A stretch of 6,482 nucleotides of DNA from Nitrospira sp. GTDB taxonomy: Bacteria; Nitrospirota; Nitrospiria; Nitrospirales; Nitrospiraceae. Shown in pieces: positions 1-6,482 of this stretch; positions within the stretch are counted from its first letter, which is position 1; the number at the start of each line of letters is the position of its first letter. The position numbers and the translations under genes are program-made. The DNA lies in assembly GCA_015904075.1 (NCBI GenBank), contig JABMDH010000057.1, positions 12,436 to 18,917 on the forward strand. Direction: 5' to 3'. The notes below the pieces were generated by a model. The model was given only the letters and a program-made list of their open reading frames with translations, was not told where the DNA came from and searched no databases.

Positions 1-158
1 ATATTGCCAAGGTCCAAATATGGTGCACCTATGCGGAAGTACTGCTCGGCGAGGCGTCGTTTGCCAAGCCGACCGTGACGGCGTCGGGCGAAGCCCATGG
101 CAACGGCATGAAAGCCGACAGCGGCATGCAGCATGACAGCATGGCTATGAGCAAATAA
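1..158 (+). CDS. C-terminal end of an unknown protein with a Met/His-rich tail (5' end outside window)
   Basis: An open frame enters from the left edge (first full codon at base 3) and ends at TAA 156-158, giving 51 visible residues. They begin IAKVQIWCTYAEVLLGEASF and end in a low-complexity tail, GNGMKADSGMQHDSMAMSK, containing five Met and one His, with a second His just before it. I do not recognise the family. The front part looks like the last strands of a folded domain. The tail resembles the flexible Met/His-rich ends of some periplasmic copper- or silver-handling proteins, but so short a piece cannot prove metal binding. Codon choice is ordinary for the window and the frame stays open to the edge, so I take it as real coding sequence. 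It converges on the broken minus-strand gene at 347-694, with 188 bases between them. The function is unknown. Confidence 0.6.
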   Translation, partial: IAKVQIWCTYAEVLLGEASFAKPTVTASGEAHGNGMKADSGMQHDSMAMSK

Positions 159-694: not shown

Positions 695-719
695 GGCGCT
701 TCCGGGTTTCCCGTGGGTA
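695..719 (+). repeat. Left terminal inverted repeat of the ISL3 element
   Basis: This end matches the reverse complement of 1975-1999 at 22 of 25 positions without a gap. The outer 15 bases are identical; mismatches fall at positions 16, 17 and 19. A weak possible -10 for the transposase (TAGGAT, 731-736) lies just inside it. Confidence 0.88.
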
Positions 720-759
720 GGGTGAACGGCTAGGATGGTCGGCCCAGGAGGGACCGACC

Positions 760-1986
760 ATGCAAGACATCGCACTCTATCAATACCTGTTGGGCCTGCA
801 GTCGCCGTGGACCGTGAGCCGTGTGCACCTGGATGTCCAAGGGCAGTGTGTGGAGGTATGGGCCGAGCACCCAGAGGGCGCGGCGTGGGAATGTCCTCAG
901 TGTCGCGAGAGGCTTCCGCTCTACGATCACGCCGAGGAACGAACCTGGCGGCATCTGGACAGTTGCCAGTTCCAGACCCATCTGCATGCGCGCATCCCAC
1001 GGGTGGACTGTGAGGCACACGGTGTGGTCCAGGTCACGGTGCCATGGGCGGCGCCACGATCGCGGTTCACGCTCCTCTTTGAGCGCCTGGCCATCGACGT
1101 GTTGGGCCAATGCGACGTGAGCGGGGCCACGAGGATCTTGCGGATCAGCTGGGACGAGGCCTGGGGGGTGATGCAGCGGGCAGTCACGCGGGGGCGTGCC
1201 CGCAAGCAGGCGCGGGTCATGCGCCGAATTGGCGTGGATGAGAAGGCCGTGGCCAAGGGCCACCGCTACCTCACGTTGGTCTGCAACTTGGACGAAGGCA
1301 CGGTGGAGCACATTGCCGAAGATCGGAAGCAGGAGAGTCTCGACGGCTACTACGCCGGGCTGACGCCGGCGCAACTCGACGGCATTGAGGCCGTGGCGAT
1401 GGACATGTGGGAGCCCTACATCCAGGCGACGCGGGCGCAGGTACCTGATGCGACCGACAAAATCGTCTTCGACCGATTCCATGTCATGGGCTACATCGGC
1501 AAGGCGGTGGATACGGTCCGCAAGCAAGAGCACCGAGAGTTGATGGCGTCAGGCGACGAGACGCTCAAGGGCAGCAAGTACCTGTGGCTCTACAGTCGAG
1601 AGAATGTACCCGCGCGACGGCGCGAGGAGTTCACTGCGTTGCGGCGCCAGGAGCTCAAGGTGGGACGCGCGTGGGCGATCAAAGAAGCCTTGCGGTGTCT
1701 CTGGCAGTACGTCTATCCGGCGTCAGGCTGGAAGTTCTGGAAGCAGTGGTACTTCTGGGCGACGCACAGCCGACTGGAACCCATTCGGAAGGCGGCGGAG
1801 ACGATTCGTCGGCACATCGACAACATCGTGACCTACTACCAGCACCCGGTGACCAACGCGATGAGTGAAGGGCTCAACAGCCAGATTCAGAAGATCAAGA
1901 GCATGGCCTGCGGCTTCCGCAATACCGAGCACTTCAAGACGGCGATTTACTTTCGCTGCGGCGGGCTCGATCTGTACCCATGCTAA
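760..1986 (+). CDS. ISL3-family transposase (DDE type), full length
   Basis: This 408-residue protein cuts and rejoins the ends of its own element. The N-terminal part carries a zinc-binding pattern, C45-x2-C48 and C84-x2-H87, typical of the ISL3 zinc-finger domain that helps recognise the ends; a DNA-binding helical region follows (about 105-150). The catalytic RNase H-like core shows D160 in IGVDEKA, D215 in AMDMWEPY, the family motif FDRFHV at 237-242, and the final glutamate E370 in NAMSEGLNSQIQ. All expected acidic residues are present and the length is normal for the family, so it is probably functional. The start ATG at 760 is supported by a strong ribosome site AGGAGGG at 746-752, seven bases upstream. 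The stop codon lies inside the right inverted repeat. Nothing next to it looks like an accessory gene. Confidence 0.93.
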   Translation: MQDIALYQYLLGLQSPWTVSRVHLDVQGQCVEVWAEHPEGAAWECPQCRERLPLYDHAEERTWRHLDSCQFQTHLHARIPRVDCEAHGVVQVTVPWAAPRSRFTLLFERLAIDVLGQCDVSGATRILRISWDEAWGVMQRAVTRGRARKQARVMRRIGVDEKAVAKGHRYLTLVCNLDEGTVEHIAEDRKQESLDGYYAGLTPAQLDGIEAVAMDMWEPYIQATRAQVPDATDKIVFDRFHVMGYIGKAVDTVRKQEHRELMASGDETLKGSKYLWLYSRENVPARRREEFTALRRQELKVGRAWAIKEALRCLWQYVYPASGWKFWKQWYFWATHSRLEPIRKAAETIRRHIDNIVTYYQHPVTNAMSEGLNSQIQKIKSMACGFRNTEHFKTAIYFRCGGLDLYPC

Positions 1987-1999
1987 ACCCGGAAGCGCC
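1975..1999 (-). repeat. Right terminal inverted repeat of the ISL3 element
   Basis: Read on the minus strand this end begins GGCGCTTCCGGGTTT and then diverges slightly from the left end. It contains the transposase stop codon (TAA 1984-1986), so part of the terminal repeat is also coding sequence. Confidence 0.88.
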
Positions 2000-2017
2000 A
2001 GAAAAAGATCTGCGCAA
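2000..2017 (-). pseudogene. Candidate severed first codons of the interrupted exported-protein gene
   Basis: On the minus strand, TTG at 2017-2015 opens six codons (M R R S F S) that run into the IS end. Joined directly to the remnant at 694 they stay in frame and give MRRSFSPFFTCVSLLSVSAV, a proper Sec signal peptide: basic start, then the hydrophobic core. A ribosome site lies just upstream. The frame holds only if no bases are removed at the junction; removing eight as a target duplication would shift it. The assignment is therefore plausible rather than proven. Confidence 0.5.
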
Positions 2018-2020
2018 GTA

Positions 2021-2026
2021 TCCTCC
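2021..2026 (-). promoter_or_regulatory. Ribosome binding site for the TTG start at 2017
   Basis: Minus strand GGAGGA stands three bases before the TTG codon. The spacing is a little short, but the match is strong, and it is the main reason for placing the lost start here rather than further upstream, where no ATG occurs on this strand for about 90 bases. Confidence 0.45.
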
Positions 2027-2035
2027 AACTAACCC

Positions 2036-2053
2036 CTCCAGCTATAGCTGGAG
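2036..2053. promoter_or_regulatory. Perfect 18-bp palindrome, likely operator
   Basis: CTCCAGCTATAGCTGGAG is its own exact reverse complement with no spacer. It lies about 10 bases upstream of the ribosome site of the interrupted gene, and just downstream of a possible -10 on the same strand, so it would cover the transcription start. An uninterrupted dyad of this length suits a dimeric repressor or activator; SoxR/MerR-type sites have similar size and symmetry, but I cannot assign a family. As RNA it could also form a hairpin at the 5' end of the message. There is no T-run, so a terminator is less likely. Confidence 0.5.
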
Positions 2054-2057
2054 TCGG

Positions 2058-2085
2058 CGTATAGCCTTCGCGAGAACCTGATCAA
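2058..2085 (-). promoter_or_regulatory. Possible sigma-70 promoter for the interrupted gene
   Basis: Minus strand TTGATC (2085-2080) and TATACG (2063-2058) are separated by 16 bases, each matching consensus at 4 of 6. The predicted start of transcription falls inside the palindrome at 2036-2053. With the IS in place this promoter would transcribe only a few codons before entering the element antisense to the transposase. Confidence 0.35.
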
Positions 2086-2258
2086 TTCCGACCTGCCACG
2101 GGTGGTCCTGTCATCTGGGGACGGCGCAGTTGGCTACGAGAAAAGTCGGCTATGCCGGCCTGTGTTTTCTCTGTTCTTAGGGTGTGAGGCAAACACTGGC
2201 CTCTTCTCCTCGCGCCGAACATTGTCGTCGGGCTGCACGAAAAGCGGCGCACCCCTCT
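2086..2258. other. Intergenic sequence without a recognised feature
   Basis: This is the middle of the divergent control region (about 2018-2353) between the interrupted minus-strand gene and the pilus gene. I see no convincing reading frame, RNA gene or sigma-54 site. A short CGGC-TAT-GCCG stem at 2147-2157 is followed by a pyrimidine-rich stretch but is too short to call. Confidence 0.5.
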
Positions 2259-2287
2259 TTGTTAAGAATTAAATAGCAAAGTAAATA
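2259..2287 (+). promoter_or_regulatory. Possible sigma-70 promoter for the pilin-PilY1 gene
   Basis: TTGTTA (2259-2264) and TAAATA (2282-2287) stand 17 bases apart in a locally AT-rich patch, matching consensus at 4 and 3 of 6. Transcription would begin near 2294, leaving a leader of about 60 bases before the ATG at 2354. This argues against use of the GTG at 2297, which would then be almost leaderless. Confidence 0.3.
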
Positions 2288-2343
2288 CAACGGGTTGTGC
2301 TGCATCATTGCTCCAGGTCTAGCGGCATGCCCCTTGCTCGCTC

Positions 2344-2348
2344 AGGGG
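2344..2348 (+). promoter_or_regulatory. Ribosome binding site choosing the ATG at 2354
   Basis: AGGGG lies five bases before the ATG at 2354. The other in-frame starts (GTG 2297, ATG 2327) have no comparable site. This choice also gives a 17-residue basic leader before the prepilin cleavage site, a normal length for minor pilins. Confidence 0.5.
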
Positions 2349-2353
2349 CTGTC

Positions 2354-5300
2354 ATGTTGTATCAACGACGAGCAGGCACGCGATCTGACACTCGCCAGCG
2401 AGGATTCACGCTGGTCGAAATCATGATTGTCGTTGCCATTCTAGGGATTACCGCAGGAATCGCAGCCCCCAATTTCACCGCGATGTATGCTCGGCACGAA
2501 CTCAATGAGGCGACAAGCAATCTCTATAACCGTCTACTCTTTGCGCGCTCGGCGGCCATTAGTCGCAATGCCATGATTGTGGCGACGCCGGCCAATGTTC
2601 TCAGTGCTGAAAGCCAAGTCGCATTCACTGCTCCCTTGAGCATGGAAAGGTTGCCGCTGAATGTCAATTTTGTTCTTCCATTGCCGGCCACTCCAATCGG
2701 CTTTACTCCTCGAGGTCTAAGCACGCTGCCTCAGGCAACCTTTCTTCTCGGTGAGCACAGGGCACTCTATGGGGGTAATGGAGCCCATTATCTGGACGAT
2801 GTGGCCTATTGGGCCCATACGAATGATCTGCGGCCTTGTAACGGAACAGCGGATGGAATCATTGCCGTATTGAACGTCACCGGCCATTGTTTGCCCGGTT
2901 TGCAAAATGTGACCGTGTACACATTCTTTGCCTTCGGGAACATCTCCGGGCGTGAAATTTTGATGCATACAGCGCAGCTGGGAGGGTTTGAGGATACGAA
3001 TAACAATGGGATACCGGATCTAGTTACGGAATGGGATAGGGTCATTAATGCGACCGGGGCGCCTGGGACGGACGGCATTCCGGACAACTATTTTGAGTCG
3101 TCGAATGTTGATGATCTCCAAGAGCGGTTGATGGCCGCCATCACCTCGATTCTCAGGAAAAGCGCATCAGGGACATCCATTTCCGTGTTGGCCACATCGG
3201 CTACGGGAGAAGGCAGTGTCTACCAAGCCTACTTCTTTACGAATGATGTGGGGCAAGGTGGAGCGAATGTGAAATGGATCGGCTATACCCAAGGGCTCTT
3301 TATCGATACCTTCGGAAACTTCCGTGAAGACACGGTCCAGGATGCGGTTCTGGATTACACACAAGACCTGATCATCACGACCCGCTATGACAACAATCCA
3401 TTGAGTCCAACCTATAAGCAGGTATTGGTTGATAAATTCAATGATGCCAACGGGGATGGAGTCGCTGACAGTACCACTCCGGTCATTACCGCCGATCTCA
3501 AATCGGTTGTGCCGATATGGGAAGCGGGAAAGGAGCTGGCGCTGACGAACTGGAGTTCCCGCAAGGTGCGTACCTGGGTGGATCAGGACAACGACGGCTT
3601 GGTCGATATCGGTGAGGAGATGGACTTCAGTACGGCCAATTGCACGGCGCTGCGCGAGTACCTCCGCTACGCGGGCGACTCCTGCGCCGGGGGATCAAAT
3701 GCCACGAACCTGATCGAGTTTATCCTTGGTAGAGAAGTGACCGGATTGCGGACGAGAATGCTCGAGGTTCCAGTCGGCAGTGGATCGTACCAGGTTTGGA
3801 AGTTAGGAGATCCGATCCACTCGACACCTGCTGTTGTGGCGGCTCCCAAGGCTCGATACGACCTTCAGTATGGAGATGCGACTTACACAGATTTTTATAA
3901 AAAGTACCGGACGAGGCGCCAGATGGTGTATGTCGGCGCCAATGACGGCATGCTCCACGCATTCAACGGCGGGTATTATCACAAAGGGGATAATCCGGCG
4001 ACGCCTGCCACGGTTGAGCATGGCTGGTTCACGAAAAATCCCACCGATAATTCGAGCGGTGAGAACCTGGGAGCGGAAAAGTGGTCGTTCGTCCCCTATC
4101 AACTCTTGCCGCAATTGCAATGGCTGGCCAGGACCGACTATTCGCATGTGTATTATGTCGATCTCAAACCGACGATCGCAGAGGCGAGAATCTTTACGCC
4201 CGATGCCGATCATCCGGGCGGATGGGGAACAATTTTAATCGGAGGATTCCGCCTGGGTGGCAGCTGCGGCAGCTGTATCGCCGGTGGAGGAGCTCCGCCA
4301 ATGACTGTGACGATCGGGGGAGTTCCAAGGACATTCTATAGCGCTTACTTTGTGCTCGATATCACCAATCCGGAAGTCGCGCCGAAGCTCTTGTGGAGTT
4401 TTGGATCTGCCGGGTTGGGATTGACGACGTCCTATCCGACCGTCGCTCGTATAAACCCGCAGACGGATTCCTCTATCGATCCGACAAACGAGAAGTGGTA
4501 CGTGATCTTCGGGTCCGGCCCGAACGGCTATAACGCGGATCTGCCGACACCGCCACTTCCTGCTTCGCCCCAAACAGCCAAGTTGTACGTCGTGGACTTG
4601 AAGGCGGGGCCGGGTGTGGGATTTGCCAATGTGACGAGAATGCCGGTAGGAAGCTGGAATTCGTTCATGGGCCATGTTGTGGCTGTCGATAATAATCTGG
4701 ATTGGCGAACCGATGTGGCCTATGCCGGTCGGACGATCCATGACGGAGCGCTACCTTGGCGAGGCAAAATGTATCGTCTGAAAATGAGTTGCCCGGCCAA
4801 TCCTTGTAGCCCGACGACGTGGGGAATTGCGAATGGAGCGGATCGTACTCCGACCGAGGTGATCGATACCTTCTTCGACGCTCCATCCGGGACGAATTTG
4901 GAGGTCGGGCCAATGGCTTCAGCGCCTGCTGTGACGATTGATGACGCCAATTTGGTCTGGGTCTTTTTCGGCACCGGTCGATACTTTGCCAACGTTGACA
5001 AGGCTGATAATAGCATTCAGCGGCTCTATGGAATCAAAGATTCCGTTACGAACGGCGCCTGTACAGAGTCGAGCGTCTTTAACTGCTGGGATAATGATCT
5101 TGTGGATGTGACAAATGCCGTGGTTTGCTTAATCTGTAGTACGGGGACCAATCAGGTGACCGATCCGACCAACGCCAGTGTGACAAGTGTCAACGGCACT
5201 GGGACCACGTCAATGGTCGGCCTTGTTCAAAGTAGGGATGGATGGCGTGTGACCCTGCCTAGGCCTGTGACTATTGCAGGGACCAATTATGCAGCCGAAC

Positions 5301-5647
5301 GGTCGATAGTCAATCCCACGTTGATCGCCGGGACGATTTTCTTCCCGACCTTCACCCCAACCAACGACCTCTGCGTATCAGATGGACGAAGCTATCTCTA
5401 TGCGTTGTTCTACAAAACCGGGACGGCCGCAGCAACGCCGGTGATCGGCACGGCTGTGTCTGGCTTGAACACGAACGTGACGACGAAAGTCAGCCTCGGC
5501 GTCGGTTTGGCATCGTCAGGTACGATGCACTTGGGTGAGGGAGGAACCCTCAACTTCCAGCAAAGCACGGGAGCATTCAGCCAAACACAGGCGTCGCTCA
5601 CGGGCTACTATAGTCGCTTTGTGAGTTGGGTTCATCAGCGCGATTGA
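2354..5647 (+). CDS. FimT/GspH-type minor pilin fused to a PilY1/PilC tip adhesin lacking its front part
   Basis: This 1097-residue protein joins two pilus proteins. Residues 1-17 are a basic prepilin leader; cleavage is expected at G17/F18 in RGFTLVEIMIVV, with the pilin Glu at 22 and a membrane helix at 18-41. Residues 60-75 (LLFARSAAISRN) and 117-121 (FTPRG) are FimT/GspH marks. Near residue 137 the sequence becomes PilY1-like: YGGNGAHYLDDVAYWAHTND, TVYTFFAFG, LGGFEDTNNNGIPD, ASGTSISVLATSA. The vWA front with its metal-binding DxSxS motif is missing. An EF-hand loop D-Q-D-N-D-G-L-V-D-I-G-E occupies 410-421. The Neisseria PilC-like beta-propeller fills about 480-1097, with GDPIHSTPAVV (485-495), VYVGANDGMLHAFN (525-538) and a calcium-type loop DNNLDWRTD (779-787). 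PilY1 family proteins act at the pilus tip in adhesion and control of extension and retraction. The frame is unbroken. It may be a deletion product, a misassembly or a true fusion; a GTG at 2297 would add 19 residues. Confidence 0.85.
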   Translation: MLYQRRAGTRSDTRQRGFTLVEIMIVVAILGITAGIAAPNFTAMYARHELNEATSNLYNRLLFARSAAISRNAMIVATPANVLSAESQVAFTAPLSMERLPLNVNFVLPLPATPIGFTPRGLSTLPQATFLLGEHRALYGGNGAHYLDDVAYWAHTNDLRPCNGTADGIIAVLNVTGHCLPGLQNVTVYTFFAFGNISGREILMHTAQLGGFEDTNNNGIPDLVTEWDRVINATGAPGTDGIPDNYFESSNVDDLQERLMAAITSILRKSASGTSISVLATSATGEGSVYQAYFFTNDVGQGGANVKWIGYTQGLFIDTFGNFREDTVQDAVLDYTQDLIITTRYDNNPLSPTYKQVLVDKFNDANGDGVADSTTPVITADLKSVVPIWEAGKELALTNWSSRKVRTWVDQDNDGLVDIGEEMDFSTANCTALREYLRYAGDSCAGGSNATNLIEFILGREVTGLRTRMLEVPVGSGSYQVWKLGDPIHSTPAVVAAPKARYDLQYGDATYTDFYKKYRTRRQMVYVGANDGMLHAFNGGYYHKGDNPATPATVEHGWFTKNPTDNSSGENLGAEKWSFVPYQLLPQLQWLARTDYSHVYYVDLKPTIAEARIFTPDADHPGGWGTILIGGFRLGGSCGSCIAGGGAPPMTVTIGGVPRTFYSAYFVLDITNPEVAPKLLWSFGSAGLGLTTSYPTVARINPQTDSSIDPTNEKWYVIFGSGPNGYNADLPTPPLPASPQTAKLYVVDLKAGPGVGFANVTRMPVGSWNSFMGHVVAVDNNLDWRTDVAYAGRTIHDGALPWRGKMYRLKMSCPANPCSPTTWGIANGADRTPTEVIDTFFDAPSGTNLEVGPMASAPAVTIDDANLVWVFFGTGRYFANVDKADNSIQRLYGIKDSVTNGACTESSVFNCWDNDLVDVTNAVVCLICSTGTNQVTDPTNASVTSVNGTGTTSMVGLVQSRDGWRVTLPRPVTIAGTNYAAERSIVNPTLIAGTIFFPTFTPTNDLCVSDGRSYLYALFYKTGTAAATPVIGTAVSGLNTNVTTKVSLGVGLASSGTMHLGEGGTLNFQQSTGAFSQTQASLTGYYSRFVSWVHQRD

Positions 5648-5678
5648 GATCGTGGGAAGCCGTGGGGAGTCATATTTG

Positions 5679-5713
5679 CCAGGTCGTGGCGAGAAAAGCG
5701 CGCCAGGACCTGG
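5679..5713 (+). terminator. Strong hairpin after the pilin-PilY1 gene, possible terminator or processing site
   Basis: CCAGGTC (5679-5685) pairs with GACCTGG (5707-5713), and inside it TGGCG (5687-5691) pairs with CGCCA (5701-5705), leaving one G-G mismatch and a nine-base loop. Twelve mostly GC pairs make this stable. It begins 31 bases after the stop at 5647 and ends 48 bases before the lipoprotein start. The tract after it (TTCCCTATTTC) is only weakly U-rich, so partial termination or protection of the upstream message is as likely as full termination. Confidence 0.5.
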
Positions 5714-5761
5714 TTCCCTATTTCGGAAAGACTTTTCAATGCTAGGGTTTTGAATATTCGC

Positions 5762-6482
5762 ATGCTCCGTCCTGGCTCAGTACAGTTTCCCCTTCTCTTT
5801 TTCTGCTTGCCCATGATGCTGGCGGGAGTCGCTTGCACAAGAGAAGGGCCAGTGGAATCTGTGAAGGCGGCTCCGGCCGTTGGGAACAACGGACCACCCG
5901 TTGTTTTATCTGCCAGGGTTCTGAACAACCCTCTATCGCTCGACTCACTGGTGAAAGTTCAAGTCGAGGCCGAAGACCCCGATCGCGAAGCCGTGTCCTT
6001 CCGTTATCAGTGGCATGCGGATGGGACAGCTCTAGCAGGCCAAACGTCTCCTACGCTGGCGCCAGAGCACTTGCGGCGAGGACAGATGGTGAGTGTCGAA
6101 ATCGTTCCTGCAGATGGGGCTCAGACAGGCAAGGCCTATCGAACGGCCGCTGTTGTGGTCGGCAACACGCCACCTCACATATCCGGTGTCACCGTTACCC
6201 CGCAGCCCATTGTTATCGGTGAGAATGTAGAGGCGCAGGTTGAGGCGAGCGATCCCGATCACGACCGGATCGATGTATCGTATCGCTGGTTCAAGAACGG
6301 GGTCGTGATCAAAGAAAGCGATGAGCCGTTCCTCATGACGACCGGATTCATTCCGCAAGACCATATTGTGGTGGAAGTGACTGTGCGAGACTCTTCATCA
6401 ACAGGGAATTCGGTTCGTTCTGTTTCTGTCAAGGTCGGCAATAGCCCTCCGAAGATCGTGTCCATGCCACCCGCATCCGATG
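5762..6482 (+). CDS. Putative lipoprotein with tandem 92-residue Ig-like repeats (3' end outside window)
   Basis: The frame opens at ATG 5762 and is still open at the window edge (240 residues visible). Residues 1-24 form a signal peptide with hydrophobic core FPLLFFCLPMMLAGVA before Cys25, a probable lipid attachment site, although Gly at -3 is not ideal for a lipobox. Two complete beta-rich repeats and the start of a third follow. Marker residues recur exactly 92 apart: the PP linkers at 45, 137 and 229, DPD at 72 and 164, and the YxW core Trp at 84 and 176. The repeats begin GNxPP and carry an acidic DPD(R/H)D-like turn, as in Ig-fold, PKD or cadherin-like surface domains. The start has no good ribosome site; an in-frame TTG at 5750 is an alternative. 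It follows the pilus gene by 114 bases, with a hairpin between. A surface or outer-membrane role is inferred, and the specific function is unknown. Confidence 0.75.
   Translation, partial: MLRPGSVQFPLLFFCLPMMLAGVACTREGPVESVKAAPAVGNNGPPVVLSARVLNNPLSLDSLVKVQVEAEDPDREAVSFRYQWHADGTALAGQTSPTLAPEHLRRGQMVSVEIVPADGAQTGKAYRTAAVVVGNTPPHISGVTVTPQPIVIGENVEAQVEASDPDHDRIDVSYRWFKNGVVIKESDEPFLMTTGFIPQDHIVVEVTVRDSSSTGNSVRSVSVKVGNSPPKIVSMPPASD

Follow-up and report, generated by a model that had tools for sequence, protein, structure and literature searches.

Modular pilins are widespread, with more than 1,200 proteins in 264 architectures according to the part of PMC8179133 available to us, and in that same part PilB of S. 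sanguinis is described as a small pilin module followed by a short loop and a vWA module. The N-terminal modules of PilC/PilY1 proteins also vary, with 68 architectures counted there (PMC8179133). In Myxococcus, the accessible sections of PMC7541494 report pilV3, pilW3, pilX3 and pilY1.3 to be essential for pilus-dependent motility; upon loss of fimU3, extension was not completely abolished when PilT was absent. As stated in those sections, a PilY1.3 devoid of the vWFA domain still accumulated and brought down minor pilins in pull-down assays, yet did not support motility, and Myxococcus PilY1.1 and PilY1.2 as well as the Neisseria proteins possess no recognisable N-terminal domain (PMC7541494).

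A FimT front and a PilY1 back in one reading frame

The window, by which we mean the whole analysed stretch of 6,482 nucleotides, holds one reading frame with a FimT front and a PilY1 back, and the presence of both in one frame is confirmed as real in the sequence. That a FimT/GspH-type prepilin is joined to the rear of PilY1 had been claimed in the initial annotation and is borne out by the open reading frame and by Pfam matches. The features are given below, with L037 denoting the locus of the closest relative that has DNA on both sides of the junction.

695 to 1999, forward strand: ISL3-family insertion sequence, 408-aa transposase ORF at 760-1986, 15-bp terminal inverted repeats
2011 to 2353, forward strand: native fimT 5' flank, sharing 74% identity with the L037 stretch between the ATPase gene and fimT
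2354 to 5647, forward strand: fusion ORF of 1097 aa, with alternative in-frame starts at GTG 2297 and ATG 2327
2354 to 2740, forward strand: front part (129 residues) of a FimT/GspH-type minor prepilin, without a difference from P0121 residues 10-138
2738 to 2741, forward strand: junction, with a putative overlap of at most about two bases, judged from L037 DNA and P0064 protein
2741 to 5644, forward strand: rear of PilY1, starting at residue 475 and comprising the end of the vWA-type region and the propeller (P0064 match, PF05567)
3803 to 5068, forward strand: PilY1 beta-propeller PF05567, residues 484-905 (Pfam; similar to the solved PilY1 3hx6)
5642 to 6481, forward strand: native pilY1 3' flank, sharing 85% identity with L057

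The frame is open from the upstream GTG at 2297 to the stop codon at 5645-5647, with ATG codons at 2327 and 2354. A prepilin (class III) signal peptide is present at the N-terminus, with GFTLVE and a match to N_methyl PF07963 at residues 14-37 (35.1 bits, cut-off 21.2); besides leader and GFTLVE site, the FimT half displays the motifs ARSAAISRN and FTPRG. The Pfam comparison that the initial annotation had proposed places PF07963 and the propeller PF05567 (66.7 bits, cut-off 28.1, 383 of 411 profile positions covered) above cut-off, while GspH PF12019 at residues 53-133 stays below with 16.5 bits versus 21, as does the stand-alone FimT P0121 with 18.8 bits.

The passage from one half to the other had been located around bases 2755-2775, which is wrong: the switch lies at residue 129/130, bases 2738-2741, because identity to P0121 stops at residue 129 and the P0064 match starts at residue 130, which corresponds to P0064 residue 475 in the protein comparison. 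P0121, a stand-alone FimT of 178 aa from a 947-base contig, continues for 40 residues past fusion residue 129, and the FimT half is cut at residue 129 of 169 with these final 40 residues missing. On the DNA level, 2354 to 2740 is 85% identical to L037 fimT. Modelling of the intact FimT from 34 sequences, with a mean pLDDT of 76.5 in the best model and values around 50-55 in three of the five, yields one long helix and seven strands, of which the three predicted at 139-145, 152-157 and 163-166 all lie past the cut; with these three predicted strands gone, the pilin module would not be complete ahead of the PilY1 part.

On the adhesin side, similarity to 3hx6, the solved PilY1 of P. aeruginosa, reaches E 3.9e-15. 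P0064 ('HP477_01515, partial'), a Nitrospira sp. PilY1 with its N-terminal part present, is identical to the window at 714 of 729 overlapping residues (98%), leaving 15 differences. By sequence comparison, PilY1 residues 1-474 are absent from the fusion, including the putative type I signal peptide and the motifs DNSGSM and VTDGAP, which in P0001 stand at positions 54 and 422, both before the kept part. The initial observation that PilY1 signal peptide and vWA motif are missing is in agreement with the comparison to P0064 and P0001. A DNSGSM-like pattern occurs in 113 of the 114 relatives of at least 1280 aa within the best 120 of 1143 database proteins, the exception being P0009 with DNSLSM; a DxSxS-bearing vWA-type N-terminus is usual in Nitrospira PilY1, though not universal in the family. 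What the fusion retains of the vWA region is a remnant only, and the extra part is the T4P-specific PilY1 domain PF05567. The structure model of the fusion, which has a mean pLDDT of 62.8 and is built on 22 sequences, none of them extending over the pilin part, is fairly confident across most of residues 311-1087, poor at residues 130-310 despite alignment rows there and uninformative for the first 129 residues.

Just downstream of pilY1, at 5750-6482, lies an ORF with a lipoprotein-like start and weak, sub-threshold PKD/Ig-like matches; L057 shares 85% identity with this region over 840 bases, and several other loci match it partially.

The ordinary operon and the search for the fusion in relatives

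The gene order in L037 is T2SSE-type ATPase (PF00437 at 2892-4745), fimT, an N_methyl prepilin, PilW (PF16074), a PilX-type ORF (PF14341, 21.7 bits and thus below the cut-off of 25.5), a 131-aa ORF and pilY1. The prepilin between fimT and PilW is pilV by position only, and the names pilV and fimT in Nitrospira are generally assigned by position, weak domain matches and some database names. The 131-aa ORF (8152-8547 in L037) is without a Pfam match, and its counterpart would fall into the stretch missing from the window, which spans 4,512 bp in L037; genes for pilV, pilW and pilX do not adjoin the fusion.

Both halves exist as separate genes in 41 of 54 loci, fetched with the fusion protein and scored at thresholds of E 1e-9/1e-10, and in these 41 loci the FimT frame is ended by a stop codon and the break points are 3,661-4,738 bp apart (median 4,415). 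Uncounted are seven loci that extend too short a distance upstream to include fimT (L001, L012, L015, L017, L029, L033, L039), four with weak matches only (L016, L018, L046, L050) and two with no match (L041, L054). The 54 loci include a few distant or differently labelled ones, and the named close relatives are Nitrospira or Nitrospirae, by which the window itself would be Nitrospira.

With respect to the fusion itself, 76 of 79 genomes of the genus and 167 of 175 genomes of the family, which include the former 79, gave some match, weak prepilin matches included. Among the matches listed from these genomes none carries both halves, because no PilY1 match starts before query residue 110 and no FimT-type match extends past residue 133. 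Proteins of similar size with this FimT front gave no match among 450 candidates at E 0.001, and within the best 120 of 1143 database proteins the fusion is absent and a strict prepilin motif in the first 80 residues is found in none, a very loose pattern matching eight. Relatives with the same domain order, which had been suggested as a means of assessment, were thus not found among those searched, and a conserved Nitrospira modular pilin is rejected since no relative among the matches listed has both halves in one frame. A plasmid near-match search with window 2000-6482 found nothing, and literature searches, covering paper listings and the passages cited here, returned no description of this fusion. 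As a side aspect, at least four pilY1-type places are present in genome G091 and at least two in G112 among the matches listed.

Origin of the join and the insertion sequence upstream

The presence of near-identical separate FimT and PilY1 proteins, together with a fusion seen in no searched relative among the matches listed, suggests that the fusion is either one allele of recent origin or a chimera produced in the assembly. The reading that we favour, with moderate confidence, is that one recent deletion of about 4.5 kb left an in-frame scar in a Nitrospira fimT-pilV-pilW-pilX-pilY1 operon, and that the product is predicted not to work as a part of the pilus. Order, strand and frame of the two sides fit one operon and both outer flanks match those of the operon. 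A deletion uniting the operon ends had been proposed at the outset and is supported, as the L037 gene order with its ends joined gives exactly this frame. Such a deletion would have occurred in the DNA of the cell, through end joining that used no more than about two matching bases. On the other hand, the frame has been kept, which has a chance of 1 in 3, and there is no decay, features which a selected fusion would also display and which count against a scar without function.

Recombination between long repeats is rejected, as L037 and P0064 indicate that the two broken ends have no more than about two bases in common. In L037, pilY1 contains the string CAGGCAACC ending nine bases before the break and equal to the fimT side of the window; as break site, CAGGCAACC is also rejected, as it would need a further 9-base loss and the P0064 protein, with HPDTT at this place, does not encode it.

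Concerning the age of the join, comparison of the 15 differences between window and P0064 with 19 relatives assigns three changes to the window and two to P0064, with ten undecided. In columns otherwise invariant in the 19 relatives, P0064 being left out of the count, the window is the odd one in 9 of 959, above most near relatives and below P0012 (18) and P0019 (27). An old decaying pseudogene is rejected, as the changes with respect to P0064 are not in excess on the window side, and without a sign of long decay the join is recent or artefactual.

The alternative that the genome possesses an ordinary operon and that fimT and pilY1 have been misjoined in the contig, by assembly or in the library, is possible, although we are inclined to doubt it. 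It would readily accommodate that the fusion was not seen in the matches listed from the records searched and that another record (P0121) has, as a separate gene, a FimT with no difference over the shared part. Moreover, the same contig has a second unusual join, to a different region, at the repeated ISL3 insertion sequence, and window 1-152 and 346-682 find their matches in genome G002 at sites separated by about 87 kb. At the fusion break itself, however, the sides share order, strand and frame of one operon and probably not more than about two bases. A usual overlap-based misjoin needs more than about two shared bases.

The ISL3 element at 695-1999 is not flanked by an 8-bp target duplication (AAAAATGG versus AGAAAAAG); among nine full-length ISL3 copies of other family genomes, five have a perfect 8-bp duplication and four are without a perfect one. 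To its right the native fimT flank starts within 12 bases, and the left-hand parts have their G002 matches near 3.71 and 3.80 Mb, at a distance from the pilus locus of that genome (4.18-4.20 Mb). Direct fusion by the insertion sequence was considered and rejected, since the right end of the element, at 1999, lies 5' of fimT, away from the junction.

The left side of the window contains two further gene segments. On the minus strand, 346-694 holds the gene of a short protein, 121 aa long in L106, that is probably secreted and is conserved across the family; the ISL3 element sits at the very start of this gene, which seems to have lost its first few codons to the element. Window 1-158 is the 3' end of another conserved gene (a 195-aa ORF in L104), and its position next to the 346-694 gene is another unusual adjacency, given the distance of about 87 kb between the matches in G002.

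Function of the product and comparison with described systems

If the favoured deletion is real and the fusion protein is made, prepilin peptidase could still cut its leader. With the pilin fold cut, the vWA motifs missing and PilV, PilW and PilX gone, the locus would be without function, and any pili would then depend on other clusters. Loss of function is suggested by our reading of the truncated fold and the missing vWA motifs along with the requirements for minor pilins in Myxococcus. Loss of the vWA domain alone need not be fatal, because PilY1.3 without vWFA accumulates and pulls down minor pilins and PilY1 proteins without a recognisable N-terminal domain exist. As some family genomes have several pilY1-type matches, a damaged copy might be tolerated.

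That the product is instead a functional modular pilin, a peptidase-processed subunit of the pilus whose PilY1 propeller is displayed at the tip in the absence of PilV, PilW and PilX, is very unlikely. The prepilin leader with GFTLVE, the in-frame join and a propeller match spanning 383 of the 411 profile positions are compatible with it, and pilins bearing grafted adhesin modules have already been described (PMC8179133, in the portion consulted). However, the fusion is found in no relative searched among the matches listed, three of the seven predicted pilin strands would be gone and the model is of low confidence over what is left of the vWA region. In addition, pilV3, pilW3, pilX3 and pilY1.3 are essential in Myxococcus and PilY1.3 without vWFA gave no motility, as reported in the sections of PMC7541494 at hand. 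The idea of a tip adhesin that is itself a pilin subunit, put forward in the initial annotation, is therefore unsupported, with the fusion unseen in relatives, the fold cut short and pilV, pilW and pilX not adjoining. We give hardly any credence to the stronger proposal that a natural deletion made PilY1 a pilin, as a one-protein stand-in for the five-protein tip complex. Were the protein made and built into pili, though, the covalent linkage would bypass the complex of minor pilins that otherwise stands between PilY1 and the pilus filament, and provide a direct test of what this complex is for. As it stands, a known operon is seen here in a lone deletion allele or in an assembly chimera, which is of little import.

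Among known systems, the fusion shares with FimT/FimU, the GspH-type minor pilin of the T4aP priming complex, the leader, the cleavage site and the first 129 residues, and its locus shares the 5' flank with L037, while the last 40 residues with three predicted strands have been swapped for PilY1. With PilC/PilY1 (3hx6 of P. aeruginosa; about 1440 aa in Nitrospira) it has the propeller domain and the C-terminus in common, and differs in lacking residues 1-474 and in that the PilY1 part is not a separate gene. With S. sanguinis PilB (pilin plus vWA), as portrayed in the available part of PMC8179133, it shares a single chain in which an adhesin-type module comes after a prepilin leader; unlike in PilB, both partners of the fusion are cut inside domains, in an arrangement not found in relatives.
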